DNA from: Porticoccaceae bacterium
GTDB lineage: Bacteria; Pseudomonadota; Gammaproteobacteria; Pseudomonadales; Porticoccaceae
NCBI GenBank assembly: GCA_018654575.1
Contig: JABILI010000096.1
Coordinates: forward strand, 1-64,000
Direction of reading: 5' to 3'
Length of the DNA: 64,000 nucleotides
Position 1 is the first letter of the stretch, and each line of letters opens with the position of its first letter. Below the pieces are notes generated by a model, which worked only from the letters and a program-made list of their open reading frames with translations, ran no database searches and was not told the origin of the DNA. This document shows positions 34,092 to 63,308 of this stretch, piece after piece. Both the position numbers and the translations under genes were made by a program.

Positions 34092-35615
34092 TTAAAGATT
34101 ACGTAGCTCTCGTTTCAACACTTTGCCCGTAGCATTACGAGGCAACGCAGCGACAAATTCAAACGATTTAGGCGTTTTATAACCAGCCAGAACTTCCCGA
34201 CAATAACTATTTAAATCTTCAGTGTCGACACTGTGGTTGTCCCCTAATACCACATAGGCCTTTACCGATTCGCCCCAATATTGATCCGGCACGCCAATGA
34301 TGGCAGCGTCGGCAATAGCGGGATGGTCATAAAGAACTTCTTCGATCTCCCTAGGGTAGATATTGACCCCACCTGAGATAATCATGTCCATCTTTCGGTC
34401 AATCAGATAAACAAAACCTTCGTCATCAAGCCGAGCTAGATCTCCAGCTGAAAACCAACCGTCTAACATAGCGTTGACGGATAAGGTATTGCCCCAGTAG
34501 CCTGAAAAAAGGTAAGGAGAACGGCTATATAATTCCCCGACCTCGCCTGGCTGCACCGGCAGTCCTTCTTTAGTCAGAACCTTAGTCTCGGTGCAGGCAA
34601 ATCCAAGACCGACACAACGCTCCTTTCTCAATTGATCAGCAGGGCGTAAATTGCAGACAATTCCTGCCTCAGTTGACCCATAAGTCTCGTGTAATATTCC
34701 AGGCCCAAAATAACCAACCACTTTCTTTTTTAGTGCCTGAGGCAGAGCCGATGCATTAGAAATTATGGTCTTGATCCGGTTAGATTTTAAGTCCGCAAGT
34801 TGTTTAGCGGGTAGATCAAAGATAGCCTGAAAATGCGTGGGAACCATAAATACATTGGTTATATCCAATTCTTTTAGTTTCTTTAGTGTACTGGCAGCCT
34901 CAAACTTCGGGGAAATTTCGCAATATCCTCCAAAGAAAAGTGCAGCAATAGCAAATGAGAATCCAGCTCCATGAAATAAAGGCGCCACAGCCAACGTCCG
35001 ATCATCTGGTGTATAACAACCATATTCTGATGCCATGCCAAGAAAGGTTAATACCCGAGATCGGTGCGATAACATAACACCCTTCGGTTTTCCTGTAGTT
35101 CCAGCGGTATAAACAAGAGCGAAAATATCGGTCTCTGCAAGATGGCCAATCTGATAGTCGGCGCTAGACTGGGTCAACCACTCCTCATAGTTATCGCCTA
35201 TCACTACCAACTCTTTCACGTTAGGCAATTGGGAAAGATCTATTTGAGGTCTTGCTGACGGATGCACAAAAATCATTGATGCATCGCAATCATCACAAAT
35301 ATACTTAATCTCAGTAGACGTTAACTTTGGATTCAATGTAACCACAATAAGGCCAGCTTGAGCGATACCTATGGCGAGCTCAGGATATTCTATACAATTA
35401 GGCGCAATAAGGGCGACTCTATCGCCCTTAACAAGACCAGCAATATTTCGGACACCATTGGACACTCTGTTGATGCGTTTCGCCAGATCGCCATAGTTCA
35501 GACTGCGCGCTCCCTCACCCAAGGCAACTTTATTAGGCTTGTGTTGGGCCGCACATCTAACGCCATAACCAATATCTAAGGCGAGGTAGGCTTGATTGTC
35601 GAACTTATCCTTCAT
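34092..35615 (-). CDS. AMP-dependent acyl-CoA ligase (FadD-like)
   Basis: 507-residue ANL ligase. ALVYTAGTTGKPKGVMLSHR, ETYGSTEAG, GWFSAGDLARLDDEGF and the terminal LPRNATGKVLKREL carry the adenylation and thioesterification motifs. The substrate class is unresolved (medium or aromatic acid). It starts 40 bp after the amidohydrolase gene on the same strand, so the two form an operon. A 277-bp gap separates it from the amidase-LeuCD operon. Confidence 0.9.
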   Translation of the reverse strand: MKDKFDNQAYLALDIGYGVRCAAQHKPNKVALGEGARSLNYGDLAKRINRVSNGVRNIAGLVKGDRVALIAPNCIEYPELAIGIAQAGLIVVTLNPKLTSTEIKYICDDCDASMIFVHPSARPQIDLSQLPNVKELVVIGDNYEEWLTQSSADYQIGHLAETDIFALVYTAGTTGKPKGVMLSHRSRVLTFLGMASEYGCYTPDDRTLAVAPLFHGAGFSFAIAALFFGGYCEISPKFEAASTLKKLKELDITNVFMVPTHFQAIFDLPAKQLADLKSNRIKTIISNASALPQALKKKVVGYFGPGILHETYGSTEAGIVCNLRPADQLRKERCVGLGFACTETKVLTKEGLPVQPGEVGELYSRSPYLFSGYWGNTLSVNAMLDGWFSAGDLARLDDEGFVYLIDRKMDMIISGGVNIYPREIEEVLYDHPAIADAAIIGVPDQYWGESVKAYVVLGDNHSVDTEDLNSYCREVLAGYKTPKSFEFVAALPRNATGKVLKRELRNL

Positions 35616-35655
35616 CCTTTAACTCTCACTATATTGAAGACGAGCATCAATATTT

Positions 35656-36507
35656 TTATAATTTAAAAATGCGTTTGGCATTAGTATGGAGAAATTTCTC
35701 CATCACGGGTTCCGATATGCCCAACTGTTTAATCTCATCCATTGCTCGCTCTGGGCTGATCACAGGCCAATCAGTTCCAAATAAAACTTTGTCTTGGCCA
35801 TATGTTTTTAAATAATGAACAAATGAATCAGGCCAGTACTTGGGGGCGTAAGCATCAGATCCTATATAAACATTCTCATGCTTCCATGCCATGGATATCA
35901 TTTCATCTGTCCAAGGGATCCCAATATGAATTCCGATCAACTTAAGCTCTGGAAAGTCGATGGCAACCTGATCAAGGGTAATCGGACGACCCACACTAGG
36001 CAGACGTCTTTCACGCGAATACACCAAGTTATGGCCTACTTGCATCATGATAGGGATATCAAGCTCACAGCACTTGGCATAATAAGGGTAATATTTGGCG
36101 TGATCCGGAGCCAACTCTATCCAGTGTGGGTACAAATGTGCCCCAACAAAACCTAATTCACGAACTGCATGCTCAAGCTCACGAACACCATCCATGCCAC
36201 GATAGGGATCTATCCCTGCCAAGCCAGAGAAGCGATCAGGGTATTTTTTGCAAACAGAAGCCACTTGCTCATAAGGAATTTCAAAAGATCCGCGCATTCT
36301 CTGATCGCCTGCGCGAACAGCAATTAATAATGAACGATCAATACCAGCTCGATCCTTCATGCCGATATAATTTTCGATGGATACGCCCTTTCTCCACTCT
36401 GCGGGGAAACGTATTTGCTCCAAAAAATGCTCATCGAGTCCAGTTTGCCCATTGCTGACTTCATACTCAGTAAACAAGTTACAAACCGTATCTATCGCCA
36501 TCATCAT
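35656..36507 (-). CDS. Amidohydrolase-family (ACMSD-like) protein lacking the N-terminal HxH
   Basis: 283-residue TIM-barrel protein of the amidohydrolase_2/COG2159 class, which contains decarboxylases and hydrolases. GAHLYPHW, MMQVGHN, IGIHIGIPWTDEM and LFGTDWPVISPERAM match the family. The N-terminal metal motif, normally D-x-H-x-H, reads IDTVCNLFT, so the two histidines are absent; members like this may bind one metal differently or use other chemistry. AGAGG precedes the ATG at 36507. Its upstream region carries the shared 33-bp element. It heads the operon with the acyl-CoA ligase. Confidence 0.82.
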   Translation of the reverse strand: MMMAIDTVCNLFTEYEVSNGQTGLDEHFLEQIRFPAEWRKGVSIENYIGMKDRAGIDRSLLIAVRAGDQRMRGSFEIPYEQVASVCKKYPDRFSGLAGIDPYRGMDGVRELEHAVRELGFVGAHLYPHWIELAPDHAKYYPYYAKCCELDIPIMMQVGHNLVYSRERRLPSVGRPITLDQVAIDFPELKLIGIHIGIPWTDEMISMAWKHENVYIGSDAYAPKYWPDSFVHYLKTYGQDKVLFGTDWPVISPERAMDEIKQLGISEPVMEKFLHTNAKRIFKL

Positions 36508-36611: not shown

Positions 36612-36657
36612 CTCTTACACAGACTGCCTCTCAATAGAGATCTATTGTAAGAGAGGC
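36612..36657. repeat. Overlapping inverted repeats upstream of amidohydrolase gene
   Basis: Two nested dyads share sequence. CTCTTAC (36612-36618) pairs with GTAAGAG (36647-36653). GCCTCTCAATAG (36626-36637) pairs with CTATTG...GAGAGGC (36642-36657) with a 3-nt bulge. The pairings are mutually exclusive. They lie about 105-150 bp upstream of the amidohydrolase start and could be an operator or an RNA switch. Confidence 0.4.
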
Positions 36658-36684
36658 CGTAAAAGATTGTCAATATAATATATA

Positions 36685-36717
36685 TATATGTTTATATTTT
36701 TCATATAGCTGAATTAT
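36685..36717 (+). promoter_or_regulatory. Recurrent 33-bp AT-rich element, copy A
   Basis: Dyad TATATG-N11-CATATA followed by a TGAATTAT tail. It is identical at 30 of 33 positions to the copy at 42421-42453 (reverse strand) and at 26 of 33 to the copy at 46558-46590. It lies in the 549-bp gap (36508-37056) between the divergent amidohydrolase and membrane-protein operons. Confidence 0.65.
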
Positions 36718-36921
36718 TGTATTACATTTATGTTACGATTATCCTGCTAAAAATACTTAGATTCTAGCTAATCAATCGTCTTTTTAGCGGATAAAAGACC
36801 TCTTAAATAGGGTTTGTTAATAATAGATGGAAGAGCTGGTTGGTATAACTACATGTATGAATTGAGGCCTGATAGCTAGATAATGCTTGGGCCAAAGACT
36901 ATTTCTCAAAGATACGACGCG

Positions 36922-36957
36922 TTGACAGTTTATTTATTTTGATTATCCTATGATAAA
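36922..36957 (+). promoter_or_regulatory. Promoter with overlapping TTATC-N4-GATAA operator
   Basis: TTGACA at 36922-36927, a 16-nt spacer, then TATCCT at 36944-36949 form a sigma-70-like promoter for the membrane protein-UbiD operon. The dyad TTATCCTATGATAA (36943-36956) covers the -10 and matches the 16-bp motif found at 46665, 50567 and 53550. This suggests repression by the GntR regulator encoded at 53601. Confidence 0.55.
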
Positions 36958-37056
36958 TAATAGCTTTCACAGAGTACTGACCAGCTTAACAGTATGTATT
37001 AGCGCGCCCTATCTTGGAGGGTATTTCGGGATTTAAATCAGCAGGAGGAGAGCCAC

Positions 37057-37728
37057 TTGCACATTAATTTTCATAACTTTATCGCCTTTATCCATGTTTT
37101 CTTGTTCGTATTTGCAATTGGAGGAGATATTGCGGTCCACTATATTGGCCAGTACCTCACCCAAGATAAGCTAAGCCTAGCGGAGAGACTGCGCGTACGC
37201 CAAATGAGGTTTATTGTTGATATGTCAGCGCGCACAGCCTTAGTGCTTTTGCTGCCCTTAGGATTTACCCTAGCGCAAGCATACGGTTCACCTATTTCAG
37301 GTAACGGATTAGCAACATTGTGGGTGGCCGCCATCCTATGGTTGGTATTGGTCTGGCTTGTCCACTTTAATAAAGGTACTCCATTAGGTGATAGATTAGG
37401 TAAATTGGACATTGGAATTCGATATGTAGTCATGCTTTCTATGACGTCCTTTGGCGGATACTGCCTGATCACAGGTGGCCCTATAGCAAGTACTTGGCTC
37501 GCCATTAAAATTGTGTTGTTTGCCGTCATATTGCTAAATGGTGTCTGGATACGTCAGATTGCTCGAGGCTGGCCCGGTGCTTTCGCTTTGGTTGAAGCGG
37601 GCGGGCAAGACGCTGTCCGCGGTGAGGTATTGATTAAAGAGCTACAGACTAAAACAAATCGAGCCGCTTTGTGTATCTGGGTTTTGGTTGTTTTGATGGC
37701 CTTTTTTGGTGAAGTTAAACCCTACTAG
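37057..37728 (+). CDS. Small integral membrane protein, unknown function
   Basis: 223 residues with about five or six hydrophobic segments (for example HNFIAFIHVFLFVFAIGG, TALVLLLPLGFTLA, LATLWVAAILWLVLVWLV, IKIVLFAVILLNGVWI, AALCIWVLVVLMAFFG). The start is a TTG at 37057, chosen because a strong AGGAGGAG lies 6-7 nt upstream and the family-like MHINFHNFIAF N-terminus follows. I do not recognise a characterised family. It lies 70 bp upstream of the UbiD gene, so it may be a transport or membrane partner of that pathway. Confidence 0.8.
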   Translation: MHINFHNFIAFIHVFLFVFAIGGDIAVHYIGQYLTQDKLSLAERLRVRQMRFIVDMSARTALVLLLPLGFTLAQAYGSPISGNGLATLWVAAILWLVLVWLVHFNKGTPLGDRLGKLDIGIRYVVMLSMTSFGGYCLITGGPIASTWLAIKIVLFAVILLNGVWIRQIARGWPGAFALVEAGGQDAVRGEVLIKELQTKTNRAALCIWVLVVLMAFFGEVKPY

Positions 37729-37798
37729 AGACGTTATGTTGTTGCACAAGGCTCATCCAAATAACCTCTCCTAACAGTAGTCTTATGGAGTCTCACTA

Positions 37799-39313
37799 AT
37801 GACAGATGCAATCGATAATCCTGCTACTAAAGCCCCAGTTGGCCCCTATGAATCCCTGCGAGACTATATCGATGCAATAGACGGCTGTGGCCAAGCTCTG
37901 CATATAAGTGGACTCGATCAAGATGCCTATGAAGCAACGGGCTTTATGTACAGGCTTATTGATAAACTAGGATGGGCCGACGCTCCTGCTGTAATATTTA
38001 AAAATATTAAGATTAATGGTCAGTGGCATGAAGGTCCTGTCATTGCCAATCAATATGGTCGTTGGCAATTCGAAGGGCTCGCTTTCGGGGTAGATCCAGC
38101 AAATGACGAACAAAGTGAAGTTTATCAAAATGTATTAGCTAAACTTGAAAGCCTAGCCACAACAGATAAACAATGGCAGGAAATAGAACCTATTGAAGTA
38201 AGCCCTGAAGATGCTCCTTGCAAACAAGTCGTTGTGCTCGGAGATGACATCAACATCCTTGACTTTCCTTTTATACAAACGAACCCTGCAGATGGAGGTT
38301 CCTATATAAATACGGGTAGTGTAATACTCGAAGATCCTGAGCGAGGCCGTAATGTTGGCACCTACAGATGCCAAATCAAAGGCCCTCGAAAGATTGCCAT
38401 TAACCCAGAAAAAAATCAGCATGGGTGGACGTTCTTAATGGATATGAAGGCCCGAGGTGAGACCTCTGCCAAGGCCGCAATCGTGTTAGGTGCTGATCCA
38501 GTGACTTTTGCCATGAGTAGCTCCAAAACCACCCGCCTTGGCCAAGACGAACTCTTTGTTGCTGGTGGCTTTATAGGCAAGGCTCTAGACGTGGTTCAAT
38601 GCGAAACGAATACCATAAAAGTACCTGCAAATGTTGAAATGGTAATCGAAGGAGAAATCCCTTTCGATTTTGAACCCGAGGGCCCATTTGGCGAGATGTA
38701 TGGTTATATAGGCGAACATAAAGAAGAGAATTTTTACATGCATGTCACTGCAGTGACTCATCGAAAAAAACCAATCTTTGTAAACCAATTTACAGGTGTC
38801 ACTAGGAGCTTCCTTACTTCTCCAATGGAAGTTACCACTAATCTTGCCATGAAGAAGTTGTTCCCTAATATTGTAGGTATACATCTTCCACTGCAAACGC
38901 CTGGCTATTGCTTTATTAGTATTAAAAAGGAAACGCCGGGAGATGCCATAACCATTGGGCGCAATATAACGACTTCATTGAAGATAGCTAAGATTGCTAT
39001 TGTCGTTGACGAAGATGTGAATATACATAACGCTATTGAAGTTATGCACGCTGTTGGAGCTCGGTGGCAACCTTATCCAGCTAGTGAGATTATTGAAAAA
39101 GCGGGCGCTATGGGGGGAGATCCAAGCGCGCCAACACGCGGAGTTGGCAGCCGTATCGTAGTGGATGCAACACGCCAGTTACCTGAGGAAGGTGGCCCGA
39201 AACAATATTCTCTTATGAATCGAGCTTGCTTAACTAAGGAATTCCCAGATATTTTTGAGTTCATTGACGAGAAATGGTCAGAAACCATTGACTCATGGAA
39301 TCCTAAGAAATAA
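37799..39313 (+). CDS. UbiD-family prenylated-FMN decarboxylase
   Basis: 504-residue UbiD-like (de)carboxylase acting on aromatic, heteroaromatic or alpha,beta-unsaturated acids. The catalytic Glu-Arg-Glu network is present as Arg190 (GTYRCQIKG), Glu294 and Glu299 (EPEGPFGEMYGY). The spacing is the same as Arg173/Glu277/Glu282 of fungal Fdc1. It needs prenylated FMN made by UbiX, and no ubiX-like flavin prenyltransferase gene is in the window. It is second in the operon after the membrane protein, under the TTATC-N4-GATAA site. It is more likely catabolic than ubiquinone-biosynthetic given the surroundings. Confidence 0.93.
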   Translation: MTDAIDNPATKAPVGPYESLRDYIDAIDGCGQALHISGLDQDAYEATGFMYRLIDKLGWADAPAVIFKNIKINGQWHEGPVIANQYGRWQFEGLAFGVDPANDEQSEVYQNVLAKLESLATTDKQWQEIEPIEVSPEDAPCKQVVVLGDDINILDFPFIQTNPADGGSYINTGSVILEDPERGRNVGTYRCQIKGPRKIAINPEKNQHGWTFLMDMKARGETSAKAAIVLGADPVTFAMSSSKTTRLGQDELFVAGGFIGKALDVVQCETNTIKVPANVEMVIEGEIPFDFEPEGPFGEMYGYIGEHKEENFYMHVTAVTHRKKPIFVNQFTGVTRSFLTSPMEVTTNLAMKKLFPNIVGIHLPLQTPGYCFISIKKETPGDAITIGRNITTSLKIAKIAIVVDEDVNIHNAIEVMHAVGARWQPYPASEIIEKAGAMGGDPSAPTRGVGSRIVVDATRQLPEEGGPKQYSLMNRACLTKEFPDIFEFIDEKWSETIDSWNPKK

Positions 39314-39343
39314 TCAGATCTCGACCCATAATAGCTCTCAGAG

Positions 39344-40138
39344 CTAACCTCGAATGAAATCAATAATTACGCCAACCCAAGTCTCAGGCTCATCACGAAT
39401 GACATATGAGGTACCGCCCTCAATCTCAACTATGGCGAAATCCGGCCTAAGCTGGACGAGACGATCAGCCACGAAGTGAAGAATGTCTCCCGTATTAGTG
39501 ACTACCAAAGTAGGCGCTCTAACCGCTTTGATCGCGTCGGTCATGTCATAACTAAAGGCAGCATGGTGCGCATACCAGTGTTTCTCGCCAGCCCAAAGTG
39601 TATGTAAAGCAGCCATATGGGAGGACTCTAGAGTTGAAACACCTCTAGACATCTTTTCTATAAGACCCCACAGATCAGAAAGGTGAGATCCATCTGCCTT
39701 CGCACTAAAATCCATATGTGGCCTGGCCAATCTCTCCTCACGCTCTTCCGTGGTGTACCAAGGAAGCCCATGTATCACTAGCCTCTCTACTCGGTCGGGG
39801 CTAGCGTACGCCATTTGGCAGGCCATTGAAGCTCCCGTGTGATGGCCAATAACTATCGCTTTATCTATGCTTAAGTGATCTAACAACTGCTTAAGGACAT
39901 CCGCATATTCAGGAATGCTAGGAGGCTCAGTCGTGCCCTCAGATAGTCCATACCCTGGCATGTCTGGCGCAATCACCTGAAACCCTGCGTCAATCAACAA
40001 CGGGATTACATATAGAAATTGCAGTGCCGACTGAGGGTCTTGATGCACCAACAATAAGGGCTTGCCTTGCCCTCCGATCCGATAGTGTACTTGACCCATA
40101 GAGGTGTCTGCGTATGCTTTTCGTATTTCATGCCCCAT
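39344..40138 (-). CDS. Alpha/beta hydrolase
   Basis: 264-residue alpha/beta-hydrolase fold: oxyanion text LLVHQDPQSALQF, nucleophile elbow IGHHTGAS and VVTNTGDILHFVADR near the acid residue. The elbow reads G-H-H-T-G, so the usual Ser is not at the canonical centre position; His or Thr occupies it, which deserves attention. The C-terminal region lacks an obvious GG-H-x-x His motif (IEGGTSYVIRDEPE). It ends the operon with the BBE-type oxidase (55 bp) and AllA. Length is close to that of the N-formylmaleamate deformylase NicD, but the altered elbow makes a standard hydrolase role uncertain. Confidence 0.83.
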   Translation of the reverse strand: MGHEIRKAYADTSMGQVHYRIGGQGKPLLLVHQDPQSALQFLYVIPLLIDAGFQVIAPDMPGYGLSEGTTEPPSIPEYADVLKQLLDHLSIDKAIVIGHHTGASMACQMAYASPDRVERLVIHGLPWYTTEEREERLARPHMDFSAKADGSHLSDLWGLIEKMSRGVSTLESSHMAALHTLWAGEKHWYAHHAAFSYDMTDAIKAVRAPTLVVTNTGDILHFVADRLVQLRPDFAIVEIEGGTSYVIRDEPETWVGVIIDFIRG

Positions 40139-40193
40139 CTTTTTAACCTCTTTTTACGCTATACCTCTAGTTACGAAGAGCTATCCAAAAACT

Positions 40194-41675
40194 CTAAACC
40201 GTCGGCTTAATATTGCCATTTGACTGGAAAAAATTCTTTGGATCATACTTGTTCTTTATCTGCACTAATCGAGGATAATTATGGCCATAACTTACTGCCA
40301 CTTCCTCTTGGGTTTCGTCCATCATCTCATTGATGTAAAACCTATTTGAAACGTAGGGAGCAAGTGCATCCCAATAATCTTTTCCCCACTTAATATTTTT
40401 GGCTGTCAGAGCAGGATCTACCCAACTTCCACCCAACTCTAAATCCCATTTAGCGCCGCGGTGTGGCCACGCTGTAGCATCAGGCGCAACATCATCAACT
40501 GCTCCGCCAAATCGGATGAGACGCATAGTATTGTGCCTGCCAGGTGAGTGATTCCATCGGTCCATCATCACATCAATTAAGTCCGAGTCGTACTCATCCA
40601 TTGTGCGCCCGCGAATGTAGTAATTAGTACCATGGGGATTGCCGGCATCCAACAATGTCTGCTGCCTGAGGAATGATTTAGGCTTTATTAGATCAGCCAC
40701 CGGGTTACCTAACGTGCGGTATGATTTTAAAACCTTTTCACCTTCTTTTGGCGAACCCATATATTGAAAGCCCGCCATTAAAAAAGGAGTTCCTGTAGGC
40801 GACATGCTCATCGCAGCACTCATATTAAGTTCTCGAGGGGCTTCTAAAGAATAATCGAAGTAACGGTTATACATGTCTTTCGCGTCATCCATTGCATAAA
40901 CCACTACACCAGAGAGAATTTGAGGATCCAGTTTATGCATACGGTATGTGTAGGATGTCACAATTCCAAAATTACCACCGCCTCCACGAACAGCCCAAAA
41001 TAAATCTGTATTTTCAGTGTCACTCGCGGTGCGGAGCTTGCCATCTGCTGTTACGATTTGAACGGATAGCAAATTATCAATCGTCAATCCCATTTTTCGC
41101 ATATTGATGCCTATACCTCCACCCAGTGTTAGACCGGATATGCCAGTATGTGAAACAACACCAGCAGGGACAACCATGCCGTGAGCCTGCGTGCCCCGGT
41201 CAAGTTCTCGTAAAAGTACACCTGGTTCACCAACTGCCGTCATGGTTGTAGGGTCTGCGGAAAGGTTGCTCATCTTTGACAGATCAATCAATAAAGTGTC
41301 ATTTTCAACCGCTTTCCCACTGATACCATGGCCGCCTCCTCTTACCGTAACCAATAGGTCGTGGCTCCTTGCGAAATTAACCGCATTAATGACATCATCA
41401 GAGTCAATACATTGAGCGATCAGGGCTGGTAGCTTATCATCAGACAATCCGTTCCATAACGTCCGCTCTTGGTGATAATGAGGTGTCGATTTTAATAACA
41501 ATTTTCTCTGTAGGCTTTTAGCGAAATCAGCCACTTCCGATCGCTTAAGAGTAACTATATTCCCAGTTCGAGACATGCACGAGACTTCTGCCGGAATATT
41601 TGCAGCCCCGGAAAAGGGTATATAAGCTGTAGCTAAAGCACCTGCAGTTGTTTTAATAAAATCTCTTCTTTTCAT
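40194..41675 (-). CDS. FAD-linked oxidase, berberine-bridge-enzyme type, Tat-exported
   Basis: 493 residues. N-terminal twin-arginine signal (MKRRDFIKTTAGALA). FAD-binding_4 domain with covalent-FAD His116 (VTVRGGGHGISG) and the GLTLGGGIGINMRKMG loop; the C-terminal BBE motif NYPRLVQIKNKYDPKNFF is intact. The second flavin attachment Cys of bicovalent members is Val174 here (AGVVSHTG), so attachment is probably monocovalent. It oxidises an alcohol, sugar or amine in the periplasm using oxygen or another acceptor. Middle gene of the AllA-oxidase-hydrolase set. Confidence 0.9.
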   Translation of the reverse strand: MKRRDFIKTTAGALATAYIPFSGAANIPAEVSCMSRTGNIVTLKRSEVADFAKSLQRKLLLKSTPHYHQERTLWNGLSDDKLPALIAQCIDSDDVINAVNFARSHDLLVTVRGGGHGISGKAVENDTLLIDLSKMSNLSADPTTMTAVGEPGVLLRELDRGTQAHGMVVPAGVVSHTGISGLTLGGGIGINMRKMGLTIDNLLSVQIVTADGKLRTASDTENTDLFWAVRGGGGNFGIVTSYTYRMHKLDPQILSGVVVYAMDDAKDMYNRYFDYSLEAPRELNMSAAMSMSPTGTPFLMAGFQYMGSPKEGEKVLKSYRTLGNPVADLIKPKSFLRQQTLLDAGNPHGTNYYIRGRTMDEYDSDLIDVMMDRWNHSPGRHNTMRLIRFGGAVDDVAPDATAWPHRGAKWDLELGGSWVDPALTAKNIKWGKDYWDALAPYVSNRFYINEMMDETQEEVAVSYGHNYPRLVQIKNKYDPKNFFQSNGNIKPTV

Positions 41676-41714
41676 AGCCCTAAGTTCTCTCTATTGCTAA
41701 CGTGCATTTAAATA

Positions 41715-41732
41715 TTAGGTAAGATCACCTAA
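41715..41732. promoter_or_regulatory. Palindrome TTAGGT-N6-ACCTAA upstream of FAD oxidase
   Basis: Perfect 6-bp arms at 41715-41720 and 41727-41732 lie in the 87-bp gap between the AllA and BBE-type oxidase genes. It is a candidate operator or processing hairpin. It differs from the other repeated motifs. Confidence 0.35.
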
Positions 41733-41762
41733 AATGGCGAACATAAAAACTTATATACTGAG

Positions 41763-42323
41763 CTAAAGTTCTAGTGCTATGTTAACCCCAAATCGGGCGC
41801 CCATATCACGCTTTTCTAGATCGGGGCTGACCGCTTCATTACCAATAACATTGTCAATTTCAAGCCCATTTGTTGCCTCTGAACGAAGAATAGTCAACAC
41901 ATCAGTATCATCTAACAATACAAACGGAAATTCATGCCAAGTCCCAATATTGAGCATGAATCCAGCAGTGCCGTCGAACAAAAAAGCACGGGCGTCATCT
42001 AAATTAGGCAACTCAGTTTCTGTAGGAGGTGACAACAACATTATGAACGGCTTAGCACCTAAAGATACAAATGTTTGAGTGTGCTTATGATGCCTTTCCA
42101 TGTATTCAGCGACTAATGGCCGTCGCTGAACAGTACAAACTGGAATCTCTGTTGTTTCATCAGATATGAACTCACCGAGACGTCGAACTTGTACAGTGCC
42201 GTTATACAGGTTTATTGGCAACGGTTTAACATTTTCATTACGCCCCAGTACCACACCAAAAGGCGCAAGGGCTTCTGGAGTCGCAGTCTCGACCTTAACA
42301 GTCTTAATTTCTATATTTTTCAC
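41763..42323 (-). CDS. allA: Ureidoglycolate lyase (AllA family)
   Basis: 186-residue cupin-like enzyme with AllA text: EYMERHHKHTQTFVSLGAKP, FIMLLSP, ARAFLFDGTAGFMLNIGTWH and ATPEALAPFGVVL at the N-terminus. Known members convert ureidoglycolate to glyoxylate and urea at the end of allantoin/purine breakdown. The start is a GTG at 42323 with AAAGGTAG just upstream. The 33-bp element copy B lies about 100 bp upstream. Two PuuE-like genes and an NCS1 permease in the same region strengthen a ureide connection. The true substrate could be an analogue. Confidence 0.85.
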   Translation of the reverse strand: MKNIEIKTVKVETATPEALAPFGVVLGRNENVKPLPINLYNGTVQVRRLGEFISDETTEIPVCTVQRRPLVAEYMERHHKHTQTFVSLGAKPFIMLLSPPTETELPNLDDARAFLFDGTAGFMLNIGTWHEFPFVLLDDTDVLTILRSEATNGLEIDNVIGNEAVSPDLEKRDMGARFGVNIALEL

Positions 42324-42420
42324 AAAGCTACCTTTAAAATTAAATATGGATTGGTTGTTACGCTAATTCTCAAGCATTCCGTTGAATTATTTCGAGAGAA
42401 TAATAACACAAAGTAGACGC

Positions 42421-42453
42421 ATAATTCACTTATATGAAAGATATAAACATATA
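42421..42453 (-). promoter_or_regulatory. Recurrent 33-bp AT-rich element, copy B
   Basis: Reverse-strand copy with TATATG-N11-CATATA and a TGAATTAT tail, 30 of 33 positions identical to 36685-36717. It lies in the 159-bp gap between the (2Fe-2S) subunit gene end and the AllA start, so it would control the AllA operon. Confidence 0.65.
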
Positions 42454-42482
42454 CGTGATTAATGTTTGATTTGGATCAAGCT

Positions 42483-42983
42483 CTATTTTTTCTCTGGATA
42501 CATGCGCACACAGGCTTCAGTAACGGATCGTTTTATACTTTGGTAACCCGTACATCGGCATAAATTACCTGCCAACGCTACCTCCATATCTTTGGTGCTA
42601 GGATTATGGTTATCCTGAATTAGCTCTAGTGAACTAAGTACTATGCCAGGTGCACAGTATCCACATTGCAAACCTGCCTCATCCCAAAATGCTTGCTGGA
42701 TTGGATGCATACTCCCATCATCATCCGCTAAACCTTCAATGGTTGTTATCTCCGCCCTAGAAAGTGTTGCTGCCATGGTTATACATGACTTAGCTACCTT
42801 CCCATCGATCATCACAGTACAGGCTCCACAATGACCTGTTTTGCATCCTAAATGGGTTCCTTTTTTACCAAGGTCATCCCTTAGTACATCCAATAAAGTT
42901 CTGCTCGGCAGCACATCTAGTTCATGGAACTGCCCATCAACGCGCAACTGGATTAATGCACTGATATCTAATAGATCTTCCAT
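42483..42983 (-). CDS. (2Fe-2S) small subunit of CoxS/xanthine-dehydrogenase type
   Basis: 166 residues with both iron-sulfur motifs: CKTGHCGACTVMIDGK and CGYCAPG with NLCRCTGYQSI. Transfers electrons from the molybdenum centre towards the FAD subunit. It is the third gene of a large-medium-small operon that reads 46278 to 42483. Cytosolic (no signal), unlike the Tat-exported IorAB pair at 26-28 kb. Confidence 0.94.
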   Translation of the reverse strand: MEDLLDISALIQLRVDGQFHELDVLPSRTLLDVLRDDLGKKGTHLGCKTGHCGACTVMIDGKVAKSCITMAATLSRAEITTIEGLADDDGSMHPIQQAFWDEAGLQCGYCAPGIVLSSLELIQDNHNPSTKDMEVALAGNLCRCTGYQSIKRSVTEACVRMYPEKK

Positions 42984-42996
42984 TCACCTATACCTC

Positions 42997-43878
42997 TTAA
43001 CCTTTACTCGATGAGTTATTCAATTTACCCAGCGCCATTTCAGTTGCTCGACGAGCAGCGACACCTGCCATCGCCTTGCGCCAAACGCCATCCCCCTGCT
43101 GATCACTAAGTGGTTCACCGATAGCATCGCTGCATGTTTTTTGTATCGCCAGGCCTACTTCTGAAGAGTAAGGACCGCCTAAATAGCTATCTAAATTCCC
43201 AGATACTACAACGACTTTTTCAGTCGCAGCACCAATAGCCACACGAATCGATTTTATGTTCTCACCGTCAAGTTGAATCACCACTGCGGCATTCGCAGAA
43301 CCGTAGGCTCCGGCACTATTCTTTAACTTGTAGTAGCCCCAGAGAGTAGTCGGAGACATCGGTTTAACCAAAATTTTTGTTAATATCGATGAAGTTCCAA
43401 GACCATGGTTTGAGAGGTCTTGAAGCTCAGATAATGACATCCGCTGTGACCCCTTCTCACTCAACAACTCTACTTCCGCTTCTAAAGCTAAGAGCGCAGG
43501 CGCAACATCATAGAGAGGGTGCATCGCAACAATATTTCCGCCAATAGTCCCTCGATTATGCACCTGCATACCGCCACCTATCTGTTTTGCGGCATAGGCT
43601 AACAAGGGTAATCTTTCGACAATTTCCTCTACATTCTGAATATCGCGATGAACTGTTAAGGGCCCTATGGATACTTCATCAGTCTCAGCACTTACGCCTC
43701 TTAGAGCATCAATACCTCCGATATCCACATAGACATCGGGCATCATTACGCCATAATTAATATAAGGCATAATCTCTTGCCCCCCAGCAATTATTACTGC
43801 ACCGCTACTTAGACTGGCCAGCAATTCTGATGCCTGTTCCAGATTGCGAGGTCTTGCGTACATCGGGTGAAGGCTCAT
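42997..43878 (-). CDS. FAD-binding medium subunit of CoxM/xanthine-dehydrogenase type
   Basis: 293 residues of the molybdopterin dehydrogenase FAD family. AGGQEIMPYINYG forms the first FAD motif, and GGGMQVHNRGTIGGNIV the second. The C-terminal CO_deh_flav domain follows. It accepts electrons from the 2Fe-2S subunit and passes them to NAD+ or a quinone-like acceptor. Its ATG directly follows the TAA of the large-subunit gene (coupled), and the small-subunit gene is 13 bp downstream. Confidence 0.94.
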   Translation of the reverse strand: MSLHPMYARPRNLEQASELLASLSSGAVIIAGGQEIMPYINYGVMMPDVYVDIGGIDALRGVSAETDEVSIGPLTVHRDIQNVEEIVERLPLLAYAAKQIGGGMQVHNRGTIGGNIVAMHPLYDVAPALLALEAEVELLSEKGSQRMSLSELQDLSNHGLGTSSILTKILVKPMSPTTLWGYYKLKNSAGAYGSANAAVVIQLDGENIKSIRVAIGAATEKVVVVSGNLDSYLGGPYSSEVGLAIQKTCSDAIGEPLSDQQGDGVWRKAMAGVAARRATEMALGKLNNSSSKG

Positions 43879-46278
43879 TTACTTAACCCCCTCAGAATTA
43901 TTTGCGTTTTGAATCGCCGACCACACACGTGAAGGTGTTAGAGGCATTTCGTGTATTACAACTTCGAGGGGCTCCAGTGCATTATTCACAGCATTAACCA
44001 GAGCCGCGGCCGAGCCACCGACCCCTGCTTCACCCGCACCTTTTAATCCCAGATAGTTATCAGGGTTGGGGGAGTCATGGTGCGCCATACCTACCAAAGG
44101 CATATCAGCCATTCGAAGCATGACATAATCTTTAAAGGACTTCGTCAACTGAACGCCATTGGCGTCGTATTGAACATCCTCAGTGAGTGCTCCACCTAAA
44201 CCCATAGCAAAAGCTCCGCAAACCTGCCCTTCAACAAGGATGGGATTAATAACCTTGCCGCAATCATGGGCCGCAGCAAGACTTAATAAATCAATTTTCC
44301 CAGTTTCTGTGTCTACTTCACACACAACAACATAAACTGCATTAGAATAACTAGGATAAGGGTTAATGCGACCATTCTCATCGGGGAGATGACTAATCCC
44401 GGGGGGCTTAAATGTTCTCGTCGCTTCTAGCGGCGGGTCAATACACATAGCGACATCATAGGCTCGAGTGTAAGAGGCATAGCAAACTTCTGCGAATGTT
44501 ACTGTGGCATCCCCATTATCGCTTGAAGAGAAAACGCCCTCTGATAGGCTAAGAGTATCGATTTCTACCTCAAGGAGTGCGGCTGCAACTGCATTTATCT
44601 TATCTCGTACATCCTTAGCAGCCAGAGCTGCAGAACCTCCTCCGACAATAGTACTTCGACCTGAATAGTTGCCAAAACCATAAGGAGACGAATTAGTGTC
44701 ACCTTGTAAAACTTCTATCCTATCCATGTCTATGCCAAGCTCATCAGCAACAATCTGAGCAATTGCAGTGCCATTATGAGTTCCTGGGCTAGTAATACCC
44801 GTTAGCACTCGAACTGTCCCATCAGGACCAACCCGCACAGAACTAGAGTCATACCCGGCCACCATTGTCCCGGGAATCGTTCCACCCTCAGGTGTCAACT
44901 CAAAAGCCATACCAATTCCGATATGGCGTCCCTCAGCAAGTGCTGCTTTTTGCTTATCCTTCCAATCCTCGTAACCAATAGTTTCAAGCGCTTTTAGAAG
45001 CACACCGCCATAATCACCTGAATCATAAACAAGTCCCGTAGGGCTAGGATAAGGAAATTGCTCCTTCGTAATAAAATTTTTCAACCTTAAATCAATCGGA
45101 GAAATTCCAAATTGGCGAGCCGCATTATCCATTGCCAGTTCTAAAGCTATAGCAGTAGATTCCTTGCCGTAGCCCCTGGCAGCATTCCAAGAAGGCTTAT
45201 TCGTCGTCACAGCATTCATGTGTACGTCGATATTCTCAACTTTGTAAGGACCAGGCATTGTCAAACCAGTCAAAAAAGCCATGCCCCAACCAGGACAAGC
45301 CGAAGGGGCTCCGATATTCGCCAAAAAATGGTCTCGCAACCCAGTCATGTTGCCGTCAGAATCAAACGCCATCTCCACCTTGTGCTGCTGCTCTCGTGCA
45401 CCTATAAGAAGACATTCCTCTCTGTTTTCCACCCACTTAACAGGCCGGCGAATCAGCTTAGTCATCAGACAAATTAACGGCTCTTCTGGATGACCATGCA
45501 TTTTCAGACCAAATGCCCCGCCAATGGTAGAAGCTATAATACGGATTTTGTTTTCATTCATCCGCAAAGTCTCTGCCAACACTAATCGTAATGGATGAGG
45601 ATTCTGACAGGTGCCGTAAAGAGTAATACTCTCAGTATCATGCTCCCATACTGCGTTGTAACAGCGAGTCTCCATGGGTTGACTTGAAAAGCGATGAATT
45701 TTCACATCAGTTGTTACAATTTTATCAGCCTGATCAAAAGCAGCTTGAGTGTCACCATTCATAAATGGGACATATATTAAGACATTATCATCCCATTCAG
45801 GGACAACTGAACGCGCGCCTTTTGCTATGGCTTTTTCAGCATCAACAACGGGTTCTTTTGGCGTGTAATCTACTTGAATACGTGATGCTGCATACCTTGC
45901 TGTACGCTCATCTTCCGCAATTACAATTGCTACTGGCTGCCCATAACACCAAGCTTCATCAACTGCCATAATAGGAAGCCGAGTAGACTTACCACCAAAT
46001 ATTGCAGGGTTTAGATGATCCGTGATCCCATTGGTGTGCTCAAAAACATCACGACCACAAAGTGCTAGATGAACCCCTGATATCTTTTTAGCGCCGGACA
46101 AGTCGACACTATTAATTTTCGCTGCTGCGTGGGGACTGCGAAGAATATAGGCATAAAGCTGCCCTTCAAAGGAGTAGTCATTGGTGTATTTAGCCTTGCC
46201 GATTAGTGGGGCTCTAGCCTCTTTTGCACGGACAGACTTACCAACGTAACTTTCTGAGGGCTTTTTGCCTTTTGTCAT
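43879..46278 (-). CDS. Molybdopterin large subunit of CoxL/xanthine-dehydrogenase type
   Basis: 799-residue molybdenum hydroxylase subunit, form-II-like. Conserved text includes GKAKYTNDYSFEGQLYAYIL, TIGGAFGLKMHGHPEE, ARGYGKEST (in place of the CO-dehydrogenase AYRCSFR loop) and the terminal LKGAGEAGVGGSAAALVNAV with its active-site Glu. It therefore hydroxylates a heterocycle or aldehyde rather than CO. The ATG at 46278 has GAGGAG 8 nt upstream; a GTG nine bases earlier is in frame but overlaps that site. It heads a three-gene operon. No maturation genes (XdhC/CoxF type) are present in the window. Confidence 0.94.
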   Translation of the reverse strand: MTKGKKPSESYVGKSVRAKEARAPLIGKAKYTNDYSFEGQLYAYILRSPHAAAKINSVDLSGAKKISGVHLALCGRDVFEHTNGITDHLNPAIFGGKSTRLPIMAVDEAWCYGQPVAIVIAEDERTARYAASRIQVDYTPKEPVVDAEKAIAKGARSVVPEWDDNVLIYVPFMNGDTQAAFDQADKIVTTDVKIHRFSSQPMETRCYNAVWEHDTESITLYGTCQNPHPLRLVLAETLRMNENKIRIIASTIGGAFGLKMHGHPEEPLICLMTKLIRRPVKWVENREECLLIGAREQQHKVEMAFDSDGNMTGLRDHFLANIGAPSACPGWGMAFLTGLTMPGPYKVENIDVHMNAVTTNKPSWNAARGYGKESTAIALELAMDNAARQFGISPIDLRLKNFITKEQFPYPSPTGLVYDSGDYGGVLLKALETIGYEDWKDKQKAALAEGRHIGIGMAFELTPEGGTIPGTMVAGYDSSSVRVGPDGTVRVLTGITSPGTHNGTAIAQIVADELGIDMDRIEVLQGDTNSSPYGFGNYSGRSTIVGGGSAALAAKDVRDKINAVAAALLEVEIDTLSLSEGVFSSSDNGDATVTFAEVCYASYTRAYDVAMCIDPPLEATRTFKPPGISHLPDENGRINPYPSYSNAVYVVVCEVDTETGKIDLLSLAAAHDCGKVINPILVEGQVCGAFAMGLGGALTEDVQYDANGVQLTKSFKDYVMLRMADMPLVGMAHHDSPNPDNYLGLKGAGEAGVGGSAAALVNAVNNALEPLEVVIHEMPLTPSRVWSAIQNANNSEGVK

Positions 46279-46557
46279 ATTTTTCACTCCTCGCTATAAA
46301 GCACCCTAAAAACGGTAACCCAATTCAACTTTAAGTGTACTTATATTCCTTTTACTCTCAGCGACTACCACTGTCGGCATAGTCGTGATTATCGCAATAC
46401 ACAAAGATGAGAAATAGGTAAAACCCGCCTCTCTAATAAGGGAATGTTTTCTTCATCATTAGGCTCACCGATAAAGCGAATTAGCATATGTGCTGTCTTC
46501 GAAAATATCTTCAAGTATTGTAAAGTAGCGCTTAAAAGAATGTCAAACTATTCTACA

Positions 46558-46590
46558 TACATGGTAATATAATTCATATACTTGAATTAT
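46558..46590 (+). promoter_or_regulatory. Recurrent 33-bp AT-rich element, copy C
   Basis: TACATG-N11-CATATA followed by a TTGAATTAT tail, 26 of 33 positions identical to copy A. It lies in the 488-bp gap between the divergent molybdenum-hydroxylase operon and the double-cupin operon. Confidence 0.55.
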
Positions 46591-46664
46591 GTTATTAGGA
46601 AGGGTTACTCGCATAGTTCTTAAGCTATATTTAAATGCTCCTTACCAGTCAACTTGATATATTG

Positions 46665-46680
46665 TTTATCGTTTGATAAC
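46665..46680. promoter_or_regulatory. 16-bp dyad, GntR-type operator candidate 2
   Basis: TTTATCGTTTGATAAC, with inverted TTATC/GATAA arms, lies immediately after a TTGATA (46654-46659) that could be a -35 element, about 85-100 bp upstream of the double-cupin start. It matches the dyads at 36943, 50567 and 53550. Confidence 0.5.
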
Positions 46681-46766
46681 TTGAAATTGAAGCAAGAAAG
46701 AAATTTTAAATGCTATAAATAAGACCCAAAAAGGCACCACAGGATCTAGGAATGGAGATTAAAGTA

Positions 46767-47729
46767 ATGAAGCACCAACTTTACATATTAATGCTGACTA
46801 TCTCGATGAGTGTAAGTTATGTCTCTGCTAATGAAGTAGAAGATTGGGATGCTATAAGTTTTATTGATGTCAATGCCATGGATTGGGATGAGACGTGGTC
46901 AGGTCTGAAGGGTACGAGCAAAGGTAAGAAACTATACTCAAATGATCAGGGTGGTTTTATGCTCTATCTAGATCATGACCACGGTTGGGACTCGCTGAAC
47001 AAGTCACGTCATTTTCATGATTTCCATGAGTGGGGTTATGTCTTAGGGGGCAATTTCTTAATCTATGAGTTTGTCAACGGACTCCAAAAAAACGGATCAC
47101 TTTACAATATGAAGGCCGGCACTTGGATGAGCCGCCCACCCTATAGCATTCATGGACATCGCGCAGATGCTATGAAGCACCAACGCGTCACTCCAGGGGC
47201 TGTGCAACTAGCATTTTCGGAAGGGGGGAAAAGTTACAGCTTGGACCCTACTAATAAATGGTATAGCCCAAACTGGAAAACAGTGCCTCAATTTACCAGC
47301 GCCCATTTTCAAGACACTGCCACACCCCAAACGATGGAGTGGGAAGATGACGATAAGCTTCTAGGTGCGAGCGTTAAATGGCTAAGCGATGATATAGAAG
47401 ATGGGTTTAGAGCGAAGATTATGTACGTACCACCAGGTTGGGAGCATGCAGATGGAGCGCAAACAAGTTATTTCGAAAAAGCCCAACAATTCTATTATGT
47501 GCTATTTGGTGATTTAACAGTACTTACTCAGGACAATCCCGAAAGCACCTTCAAAAGTACGACCGTGTCCAAAGACTTCTTCATCAACAGGCCCCCAAAA
47601 AGTCTTTGGACTTGGGGTGAAGGATCTCTGTCAAGAAAAGGAGCCATGTGGCTAGAGGTCACCTACGCTCAAGGCGCTCGCACAGGTAATGGCCCCATCG
47701 AAAAACCCATAATTCTTCCAGGAAAATAG
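46767..47729 (+). CDS. Secreted double-cupin protein
   Basis: About 320 residues with a clear signal peptide (MKHQLYILMLTISMSVSYVSA). Two cupin halves follow: the first has HFHDFHEWGYVLGG and PYSIHGHRAD, the second PGWEHADGAQTS, YYVLFGDLTV and INRPPKSLW. The histidines could bind a metal, so a periplasmic dioxygenase, isomerase or binding role is possible; no characterised homologue is obvious to me. The ATG at 46767 has GGAG 8 nt upstream and gives a compact signal peptide; an ATG at 46752 would add five residues. It is 13 bp from the permease gene, so the two are co-expressed. Confidence 0.8.
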   Translation: MKHQLYILMLTISMSVSYVSANEVEDWDAISFIDVNAMDWDETWSGLKGTSKGKKLYSNDQGGFMLYLDHDHGWDSLNKSRHFHDFHEWGYVLGGNFLIYEFVNGLQKNGSLYNMKAGTWMSRPPYSIHGHRADAMKHQRVTPGAVQLAFSEGGKSYSLDPTNKWYSPNWKTVPQFTSAHFQDTATPQTMEWEDDDKLLGASVKWLSDDIEDGFRAKIMYVPPGWEHADGAQTSYFEKAQQFYYVLFGDLTVLTQDNPESTFKSTTVSKDFFINRPPKSLWTWGEGSLSRKGAMWLEVTYAQGARTGNGPIEKPIILPGK

Positions 47730-53600: not shown

Positions 53601-54371
53601 ATGACGATTTCACAACAAAACGATACTAAAAAACACCGGCCGCTGAGTCAGGATGACCCGACGCCTCTATATCACCGACTTTATACCCGTTTAAAGAAAG
53701 ATATTTTAGACGGTACATTGAAGCATGGTAGTCAACTGCCTACCGAGCATGAACTCTCTCAAGTCTTTAGTATTTCGCGTGTCACCGCCATACGAGCGCT
53801 TAACGAACTGGCAGCAGATGGCTTGGTAACTAGGCAGAGAGCTAAAGGCACTCATGTGACGCACAAATACACGCCTAAGCCAGTCAAAGCACCTCTTATA
53901 GGAATGCTTCAAGAAATTGAGTCAATGGCTCGACACTCAGTTGTTAAGGTTATTGAACTCAATGAAACTCGTCCACCGGCAGATGTTAGCGAAGCGTTTA
54001 ATTTAAGCGCTGAAGAAAAGATGCTGAAAATGATCCGTGTGAGGATACGTGACGGAGAGCCTTTTGGTTATTACATAAGCTGGAGCCGCGGATTGGACGA
54101 TACTATTAGCGTAGAAACGATAAAATCAACGCCTCGCCTAGAGATCTTTCGTCAAAATGGTGTTCACATCACTCATGTTAAGCAAATTTTAACAGCAATG
54201 CCTGCCTCAGTAGAGGTTGCAGCTGAACTTCAAGTCGAACCAGGCTTTTCTCTGCTAAAGCTTGTGCGCCAGTCTTTTGACAAGCAGGAGCAACTTGTTG
54301 ATTTTCTTATAGCGCTATATCACCCAGAACGTTTCCAGTATCACATGGATTTGACAGTAGAACCCGAATAG
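53601..54371 (+). CDS. GntR-family (HutC/UTRA) transcriptional regulator
   Basis: 256 residues: an N-terminal GntR winged helix (LYHRLYTRLKKDILDGTLKH, LPTEHELSQVFSISRVTAIR, GTHVTH) and a C-terminal UTRA effector domain (MLKMIRVRIRDGEPFGYYIS, ERFQYHMDLTVEPE). HutC-type members repress catabolic genes until an inducer binds. It lies between the PuuE pair and the TRAP genes. The palindromic motif at its own promoter recurs at three other promoters in the region, so I infer it governs them. Confidence 0.93.
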   Translation: MTISQQNDTKKHRPLSQDDPTPLYHRLYTRLKKDILDGTLKHGSQLPTEHELSQVFSISRVTAIRALNELAADGLVTRQRAKGTHVTHKYTPKPVKAPLIGMLQEIESMARHSVVKVIELNETRPPADVSEAFNLSAEEKMLKMIRVRIRDGEPFGYYISWSRGLDDTISVETIKSTPRLEIFRQNGVHITHVKQILTAMPASVEVAAELQVEPGFSLLKLVRQSFDKQEQLVDFLIALYHPERFQYHMDLTVEPE

Positions 54372-60444: not shown

Positions 60445-63081
60445 TTAGAAATTAAACGAAGCTCTTACACCAAATACTCTCTTATCAGGAAGTGACACGG
60501 TCAATACTCGAGGCCCTGCGGCAGTCGCACCACCCCCCATTTCGCCTGAGATTCCTGAAAGGTCCCACATCGCCTGAAGTCCTTTTGACTGCTCATCTTC
60601 AAAACAGTTAGTACAGAACAACTCAAATCGATATGATTCAGTATCTAAGCCTACTCTTAAGTTTAACTTCTGACCCGTACCGGTGTGGGCAAGCATCGCA
60701 TTTGATGCGTACATTTTCCCTGTATAGATCAGATCTGCGCGAGCAAACAATTCGCCAGCTTCAACACCTTTGTTGAAGTCTAGCGATAAGCTACCACTGG
60801 TTTTTGGGTATCTAGAGAACTCGTTCCCTTGAGCCAAAGTGTCATCTCCCAAGAGGTCTTTAGCATCTCCACTTAAGAATTTATTGCCAAGTTCACTATC
60901 ATTCAATGCATAAGTGAAACCTAAGGTCAGGTTTTCGTTCAGCAGCACAGTACCCTCAACTTCCAAACCATTTAGCTCAGCATTACCGCCCTGACTCGTG
61001 ACATTGCCTGTGAGTGTTTGAACCCCATCAACGGTATAATACGCTACAGAAGGGATGTGGACATTGGTAAGATCAGTTGAATAGTACGCTGCTGATACAA
61101 AGCCTCGCCCATCAAGGAAGCTGCGCTTGAGACCGAGTTCCCAGTTCTCAGCAACTTCTTCATCAACCTGAACATCCGCTCCGCCTGTCTGAGCAGCAAT
61201 CTCAGCAAGCTGTGAATCACTTAGCCCAACCAATGATGGATTGAACAAGCCAGGTAGCGTACCTTCAGCATAACTCACATAAATAGTAGTATCTTCGTTA
61301 GGCTTAAAGTCTGCAATAACGCGAGGCATCGTGCTTGTGAATTCGCCACCCGCATTACGCACTTCAGTTGGATCCCAAGCACCTCCACTATAATTATTAC
61401 TACCTTCATAGACGTCATCCTTCTGACGTCGCACTTCAGCACTTATACTCAACTTATCACTTACATCATATGACAAGGTCGCGTATACCGCGCTAGTGTT
61501 TATGTTTGCCCACTGCGTGTTAGAAGAGTTAGACGTTTGCTGGCCATACCATCCACAGCGATCAGCACCCCACGCATTACAAAGAGGTACATTACCTCCC
61601 TCTATTGGATTTCCAGTTCGAATAGGGTCACCATTTGCACCGTCATTTCGAAGTGTATATCCAAACATGGAACCAATGATCTGAGATATATTGTCTATTT
61701 CCATATCACTGTATCCCACAGACCAACGAAGACTTTGATCATCAGAAGAGGATAACCGCACTTCCCAAGAAGAATCTTCCATCGATTGCATTCTAAGATC
61801 CTGTGAATCAGCTGGGTGATTTGCCCAGAACGAACCCCAAATAGCACCACCCTGTCCCGAAAGGTCAAGATCTTCCGTTGCTCGGCGGTCGAGGTCATTG
61901 TGAGAACCGTAGCTATTTTCGTGAGCAGCATAGATAACGTTTAGATTCATGCCGTTATCAAAGTTATAGTCAACGTTCAAGCTAACTTCCTGAGCCTCTC
62001 GCTCCAAGCCGAAGTGGTCTGGTGCTACCATATCAGGGGTATTACGGAGACCATTTGCAAGCGGGAACGTGCCATCAAGGTGGCTGTTTAGCATGGCGAG
62101 GGCTCTAGGGGAGCCCGTATCCATGCCAATGTGCGCAGCCGAAGGCATAGGCACTTCGCCACAAATATAATCCAATGGAACCGTTGGATGACTTAGACCA
62201 TTAACCGGATCATAGGCCAAACGATTAACCATTGCTCCTGGCCGACAATTAGTGTAACCACTGCGATAGTCAAGTGCTGTTGCCGCATCAGGACCATCAT
62301 CATCTTTCCAGGTATGGAAGCGTAATTTTGCAGACAGATTGTCATTTGGGTTAAACGCAAGAGTCAAAGCAAAGTCATCAGTTGACCTGTCACCTAGTCT
62401 TTGACCGGCAACCGCAGCATTATCGTAATGCCCATCGGTTTCATAACTACTTGCTGTCAAACGATAGCCAATACTATCCGTCAATGGTCCATCGAGTGAA
62501 ATACCACGCCGAGACAAGCCATACTGACCGGATGTGACATCAATCCTGCCAGAAAACTCTTCGCCTGGATCTTTAGTGATAATGTTTAAGGCACCAGTGT
62601 AAGTAGAACGTCCAAAGTGCGCCCCTTGAGGTCCTTTAAGTACCTCGATTCGCTCTACACTTTCCATTCCACCAAATTCTGGTCCAATAGTAGGAGCGCC
62701 ATCAATAAAGACACTCGCCGCCTGACGATGCATTAAATCTGTTCGCGGGTTCATGCCTCTGAAAATAAGACGTCTACTTTCGCGACTATTTTTACCCACA
62801 GCATTCTCTGAGTAGAAGAAGCCTGGACTAAAAGAGACAATGTCTTGTAATTCATTTATACCCTTAACCTCAATATCGTGAGAGGTTAGAGCCGTAATAG
62901 TATATGGCGCATCTTGGATTGATTCATCACGCTTTCGTGCAGTTACTGTGATTTCCTCTAACTGCAAACGCTCGTCGTCCTGCGCGTTGGCAACTGATAC
63001 AAATCCAGACCCTGCTGCAATCGTCATAGCCATTAAGAGACTTGCTCTTTTGAACTGTAATTTCATTAACTTATTTTTCAT
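60445..63081 (-). CDS. TonB-dependent receptor
   Basis: 878-residue outer-membrane importer. Signal peptide (ends VANAQ), TonB box (LEEITVTARKRDESIQDAPY), plug domain (FIDGAPTIGPEFGGMESVER; VLKGPQGAHFGRSTYTGALN) and a barrel ending in the aromatic FGVRASFNF. The plug text resembles receptors for aromatic or steroid-like molecules rather than siderophores, but this is weak. It is the likely outer-membrane entry for the catabolic cluster, because a looser TATATG-type element lies upstream at 63276-63308. The terminator follows. Confidence 0.94.
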   Translation of the reverse strand: MKNKLMKLQFKRASLLMAMTIAAGSGFVSVANAQDDERLQLEEITVTARKRDESIQDAPYTITALTSHDIEVKGINELQDIVSFSPGFFYSENAVGKNSRESRRLIFRGMNPRTDLMHRQAASVFIDGAPTIGPEFGGMESVERIEVLKGPQGAHFGRSTYTGALNIITKDPGEEFSGRIDVTSGQYGLSRRGISLDGPLTDSIGYRLTASSYETDGHYDNAAVAGQRLGDRSTDDFALTLAFNPNDNLSAKLRFHTWKDDDGPDAATALDYRSGYTNCRPGAMVNRLAYDPVNGLSHPTVPLDYICGEVPMPSAAHIGMDTGSPRALAMLNSHLDGTFPLANGLRNTPDMVAPDHFGLEREAQEVSLNVDYNFDNGMNLNVIYAAHENSYGSHNDLDRRATEDLDLSGQGGAIWGSFWANHPADSQDLRMQSMEDSSWEVRLSSSDDQSLRWSVGYSDMEIDNISQIIGSMFGYTLRNDGANGDPIRTGNPIEGGNVPLCNAWGADRCGWYGQQTSNSSNTQWANINTSAVYATLSYDVSDKLSISAEVRRQKDDVYEGSNNYSGGAWDPTEVRNAGGEFTSTMPRVIADFKPNEDTTIYVSYAEGTLPGLFNPSLVGLSDSQLAEIAAQTGGADVQVDEEVAENWELGLKRSFLDGRGFVSAAYYSTDLTNVHIPSVAYYTVDGVQTLTGNVTSQGGNAELNGLEVEGTVLLNENLTLGFTYALNDSELGNKFLSGDAKDLLGDDTLAQGNEFSRYPKTSGSLSLDFNKGVEAGELFARADLIYTGKMYASNAMLAHTGTGQKLNLRVGLDTESYRFELFCTNCFEDEQSKGLQAMWDLSGISGEMGGGATAAGPRVLTVSLPDKRVFGVRASFNF

Positions 63082-63232: not shown

Positions 63233-63275
63233 CTTTTCACTCTAATTCGGATGGTTCACGATGTCAAATAATTCT

Positions 63276-63308
63276 TATACATATTTTATAAATTCATATA
63301 TATGTATA
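63276..63308. promoter_or_regulatory. AT-rich dyad, possible distant copy of the 33-bp element
   Basis: TATACATA (63276-63283) is inverted at TATGTATA (63301-63308). The centre contains TTCATATA as in copies A-C, but the flanks match poorly. It is in the 494-bp divergent gap 63082-63575 between the receptor and cytochrome genes. The rest of that gap holds a tandem TTTATTGACA repeat (63414-63433), which is a possible cytochrome promoter. Confidence 0.3.

Follow-up and report, generated by a model that had tools for sequence, protein, structure and literature searches.

A 33-bp AT-rich element that recurs in a catabolic gene cluster of a Porticoccaceae bacterium is very probably the operator of a local, autoregulated IclR-family regulator that would co-ordinate the operons of the cluster. 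This interpretation builds on conservation of the sites, five local occurrences of the core, a site adjoining the iclR gene, the co-occurrence of element and regulator and the spacing of boxes and promoters, features that can be read directly from the DNA. The window analysed here, 64,000 nucleotides long, comprises positions 1-64000 of contig C83 from a genome of 2.42 Mb (97.6% complete).

Distribution of the element in the genome

Three intergenic copies (30/33, 26/33 and 26/33 identical) had been noticed in the sequence-only reading, and their positions and identities were reproduced exactly. Copy 1 (36685-36717, forward strand) lies between a leftward operon for an amidohydrolase and an AMP-dependent ligase, assigned by Pfam and continuing on to an isochorismatase (34092-36507, reverse strand), and a rightward operon for a small membrane protein and a UbiD-family decarboxylase (37057-39313, forward strand). 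Copy 2 (42421-42453, reverse strand) separates coxS, encoding a 2Fe-2S subunit, from the operon for an AllA-like protein, a FAD-linked oxidase and an alpha/beta hydrolase (39344-42323, reverse strand), and copy 3 (46558-46590, forward strand) is located upstream of the molybdenum hydroxylase operon coxL, coxM, coxS (42483-46287, reverse strand). The copies therefore lie upstream of leftward operons, as had been proposed, with the amendment that copy 1 is flanked by divergent genes and thus may also serve the membrane protein/UbiD operon. No further match to the three copies at 25/33 or better was present in the window, and the sole 24/33 match was on the other strand and overlapped copy 3. Chance had been thought an improbable source of such similarity, and when the intergenic DNA of the window was simulated 397 times with an order-3 Markov model, the best pair reached at most 26/33, compared with a real value of 30/33. 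When copy 1 was used as a fixed reference in 40 simulations, 23/33 was never exceeded.

The 2.42-Mb genome contains five exact occurrences of the core TTCATATANNTGWATWAT, all of them within 34 kb of contig C83, at 36.7, 42.4, 46.6, 63.3 and 70.8 kb. The additional two define site 5 (63278-63310, forward strand), which has a weaker box A and lies upstream of a gene for a TonB-dependent receptor (60445-63081, reverse strand), and site 4 (contig positions 70800-70832, past the window), which is separated by 33 bp from the start of the IclR-family gene downstream of it. A search of the genome for the core with one mismatch returned nothing away from these five sites, matches with two mismatches were few elsewhere and no more numerous than in a reversed control, and a profile search of the genome agreed with this distribution. 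The element is thus confined to the cluster, and its identification as a common genome-wide repeat was rejected. Also, when viral contigs were scanned for the exact core, the matches listed were only scattered single ones, which we read as chance hits in a very large collection. The AT-rich composition is what might be expected of a chance or mobile repeat without function, but such an origin is exceedingly improbable given the simulations, the restriction to one cluster of the genome, the orthologous promoter positions held across genomes and the fixed spacing to the -35 hexamer.

The IclR-family gene and its orthologues

The gene next to site 4 (contig positions 70866-71612, 6.9 kb past the window end) encodes a protein of 248 amino acids. 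Members of the IclR family are taken here as proteins of about 250 residues with an N-terminal IclR helix-turn-helix and a C-terminal IclR effector domain, and both domains scored over the cut-off (PF09339, 4.3e-13; PF01614, 2.5e-18). The best NCBIfam match was to the PcaR/PcaU/PobR group (TIGR02431), with 77.4 bits against a cut-off of 284.75, and the protein therefore resembles this group without being a member of it.

The element is located directly upstream of iclR in all eight close orthologues (56-100% identity). Over its 33 bp, this site is identical in G000, G015, G042 and G432, although protein identity is 87-90%. Of the roughly 50 genus genomes, only G000, G015 and G042 were found to have a close orthologue (87-100%), and strong elements were confined to the same three. 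No orthologue was detected at E<=1e-35 in any other of the 391 genomes sampled in the order, and the best other match in a class-level sample was 31% identical. Seven further genomes encoding UbiD were considered; five of them carry an orthologue (56-90%), and it is missing from the other two. An additional regulator distinct from the GntR protein, not encoded in an obvious place of the window, had been postulated, and the position of iclR beyond the window end, its upstream site in 8/8 orthologues and the co-occurrence of element and regulator in the genus bear this out. The regulator gene itself, the fifth site and the fixed promoter spacing go beyond that reading.

The more distant orthologues (56-63%) in G433, G434, G437 and G438 each have the site just upstream. 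In all four genomes iclR adjoins the orthologue of the amidohydrolase-ligase operon, the target of copy 1, and in G434, G437 and G438 it stands beside the orthologue of the TonB receptor gene. In G433 and G438, a second site separates iclR from the amidohydrolase gene, and a single contig carries both iclR and the UbiD cluster in G433, G437 and G438. Because iclR of the distant genomes sits by the target orthologues, sites included, the sites appear to follow orthologous operons through rearrangement. The element was absent from the coxLMS and UbiD regions of the distant genomes, which counts against the IclR reading. More distant IclR relatives (35%) on roseobacter plasmids sit with acyl-CoA genes, and these neighbourhoods provided no clue to the pathway.

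Other candidate binders were considered as well. The GntR protein (53601-54371) was rejected since no copy lies upstream of its gene, and the other IclR genes of the genome were rejected after the loci of five other IclR matches were found to have no comparable site. A LacI-family gene (contig positions 71810-72820) adjoins iclR and co-occurs with the element too, which is a counter-point to the IclR assignment; orthologues of it and of a TetR-family gene (74065-74697) are found in the same neighbourhoods of G015, G432, G434, G437, G433 and G438, and that of the LacI gene also in G042. However, in none of these genomes does the element precede lacI or tetR, while it precedes iclR every time. 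LacI operators usually have a central CG, which the element lacks, and the three-box geometry discussed below has been described for IclR. We consider it improbable that either of these proteins is the binder.

Boxes, promoters and mode of action

The element consists of three boxes in alternating direction, A (TATATG, positions 1-6), B (CATATA, 18-23) and C (TGAATTAT, 26-33). Self-complementarity over 23 sites peaked at centres 12.0 (A/B, 0.61) and 22.5 (B/C, 0.72), which are 10.5 bp apart. The TATATG-N11-CATATA dyad described in the sequence-only reading is present, but the better conserved dyad is TTCATATANNTGAA at positions 16-29. In G438, the B/C dyad is preserved through a symmetric change, TTCATGTACATGAA. 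Copies 1 to 3 have all three boxes. Most sites at iclR and at the receptor gene carry a degenerate box A (G6 to A), which leaves these window copies as the only clear three-box sites and weighs against the reading.

Published IclR consensuses are GKTYCRYW3-4RYGRAMC for group 1 and TGRAACAN1-2TGTTYCA for group 2, and three-box sites of alternating direction, such as that of PcaU, fit both (Suvorova and Gelfand, PMC8222616). Counted on these consensuses, the distance from C to G is 8-9 in the group 1 dyad and that from G to C is 12-13 in the group 2 dyad. The element, with 9 from C18 to G27 and 12 from G6 to C18, has the spacing of the published three-box sites. When compared with the group 1 consensus, the inner TTC-RY...GAA agrees and the outer G and C are missing, the latter a point against the reading. 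Like the operators of PcaU, PobR and HmgR (PMC8222616), the element has three alternating half-sites that form overlapping dyads of group 1 and group 2 type, its targets are catabolic, and the regulator gene lies next to its own site. Unlike those operators, it has the AT-rich TTCATATANNTGAA instead of GTTCGATWATCGMAC, its third box is degenerate at the autoregulatory site, five sites are spread over 34 kb, and the regulator is only distantly related (77 versus 285 bits for TIGR02431). In common with the motifs of IclR, KdgR and AllR, it is an AT-rich palindrome whose arms are TTC/GAA and which an IclR-family protein would read, whereas its best dyad combines group 1 spacing with an added box and differs from the published TGRAACAN1-2TGTTYCA. 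Literature searches for the core sequence together with IclR, or for the cluster, returned nothing relevant. The type of switch is already well known, and the element is newly described here.

At 21 of the 24 sites in all genomes, TTGACA or a hexamer with one change is found 10-11 bp outside box A and is followed after 17-18 bp by TAnnnT; only the three copy 2 sites depart from this pattern. These predicted sigma-70-type promoters (TTGACA-N17/18-TAnnnT) read into the target gene. For copy 1, the putative leftward promoter has its -35 hexamer TTGACA at 36668-36673 (reverse strand), 11 bp from box A and conserved in three genomes, and after a spacer of 18 bp its -10 hexamer TACAAT at 36644-36649 (reverse strand). 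The predicted coxLMS promoter is similar (TTGACA at 46541-46546, 11 bp from box A; TACAAT at 46517-46522, spacer 18; reverse strand), and that of the receptor gene would comprise TTGACA at 63262-63267, 10 bp from box A, and TAGAGT at 63239-63244 (both reverse strand). For copy 2, the promoter is likely on the box C side, with a putative extended -10 element TGtTATTAT (42400-42405, reverse strand) 17 bp after the TGAATT of box C and directed to the AllA operon. At site 4, the box C side would act for iclR itself (TATAAA), and at copy 1 it would perhaps do so for the UbiD operon, where a possible, weak extended -10 element TGtTACGAT (36734-36739, forward strand) would place the -35 position inside box C; its TGnTAnnAT is kept in three genomes.

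We infer binding, an inducer and activation rather than repression. The three boxes would form two overlapping dyads with centres at 12 (A/B) and 22.5 (B/C), and since these are one helical turn apart, a pair of dimers could bind one face of the DNA. Most likely, at sites 1, 3, 4 and 5 the regulator would recruit or stabilise RNA polymerase when a pathway metabolite is available. On the box C side, at the AllA operon, iclR and perhaps the UbiD operon, overlap of the site with the -35 region suggests direct control and, for iclR, autorepression.

An activator is more likely than a repressor, and it is the upstream placement of the boxes that favours activation, while the consensus -35 hexamers, unusual for an activator-dependent promoter, leave room for repression. 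The same regulator and operator might act mainly in repression relieved by a pathway metabolite, as with IclR, AllR and KdgR. Repressors are common among IclR-family proteins, target promoters with a consensus TTGACA and correct spacing could work unaided, and there is overlap with the -35 position at copy 2 and at the iclR site. We nevertheless consider predominant repression less likely, since sites 1, 3, 4 and 5 have all their boxes upstream of the -35 hexamer at a fixed distance, the usual place of an activator, and the -10 hexamers of the target promoters (TAGAGT, TACAAT, TAGTCT) are weak. A more tentative idea, which we regard as rather unlikely, is that a single operator serves both directions in differing geometry: on the side of box A it would activate from upstream, 10-11 bp from the -35 hexamer, and on that of box C it would overlap the -35 position. 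How strong box A is might then decide between activation of a promoter and autoregulation only, and new genes, coxLMS among them following an internal deletion in a TonB receptor gene, might have captured promoters that carry the operator.

Conservation and history of the target operons

Three related genomes keep the element at corresponding positions. G015, a metagenome-assembled genome named Porticoccaceae with a UbiD protein 90% identical, retains copies 1 and 3; G432 (L024, UbiD 78%) retains copies 1, 2 and 3, and G042 copies 2 and 3. Site 5 is kept in G015 and G432. In alignments, the element and the adjoining promoter form islands of identity amid otherwise diverged DNA. In G015, which has no copy 2, the intergenic region between coxS and AllA is nearly gone (in L020, the coxS match extends to 8077 and AllA starts at 8103), so that the AllA operon is probably read through from copy 3. 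Such a natural deletion would fit a role of copy 2 as a promoter.

Some observations on the surrounding sequences can be added. L024 (NZVE01000040.1) is titled Rhodobacteraceae, but the cox and AllA proteins encoded there share 95-99% identity with those of the present Porticoccaceae-type genome; probably the label is wrong or the bin is mixed. Four genomes have an identical stretch of about 37 bp (AACTTGATATATTGTTTATCGTTTGATAACTTGAAAT, window positions 46650-46687) in the interval from copy 3 to the cupin/permease operon; the stretch includes TTATC-N4-GATAA and may act as a promoter or operator of its own. Two cupin-like paralogues of the extended cluster (window positions 46752-47729; L021:1641-2633) are each about 50% identical to the orthologues of the other.

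The promoter of copy 3 appears to have changed its gene. In G042 it drives a gene resembling that of a TonB receptor (L081:1-1436). G432 retains, in the space from copy 3 to coxL, the first 95 residues of the receptor (96% identical) joined to a short C-terminal end (L024:18545-18829), and in the window a remnant of the receptor gene at 46288-46500, made up of leader and last strand, encodes a short leader ending in ELGYRF. Because the receptor gene is present in G042 and remnants of it in G432 and the window, coxLMS seems to have been placed behind the copy 3 promoter by an internal deletion of this gene. G433 and G438 have the coxLMS cluster without the element.

A membrane protein of 223 residues with no Pfam match precedes UbiD in L020, L024, L025, L029 and L030 (65-87% identity), which suggests that the two might form a functional pair. 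In L025 and L030, which come from distant genomes, the genes for a DUF1838 protein and a metallo-beta-lactamase, located beside iclR in the present genome, sit between the UbiD, AllA and cox genes, and their positions link the two halves of the cluster in one pathway.

With this analysis, an uncharacterised catabolic cluster of marine Porticoccaceae-type bacteria, comprising a molybdenum hydroxylase, a UbiD decarboxylase, an AllA-like protein and a TonB receptor, would gain a regulator with its operator and a regulon of five sites or more. It also offers a clean, testable case of an IclR three-box operator. The boundary of the regulon would tell which genes share one pathway and may thereby aid in finding its substrate.
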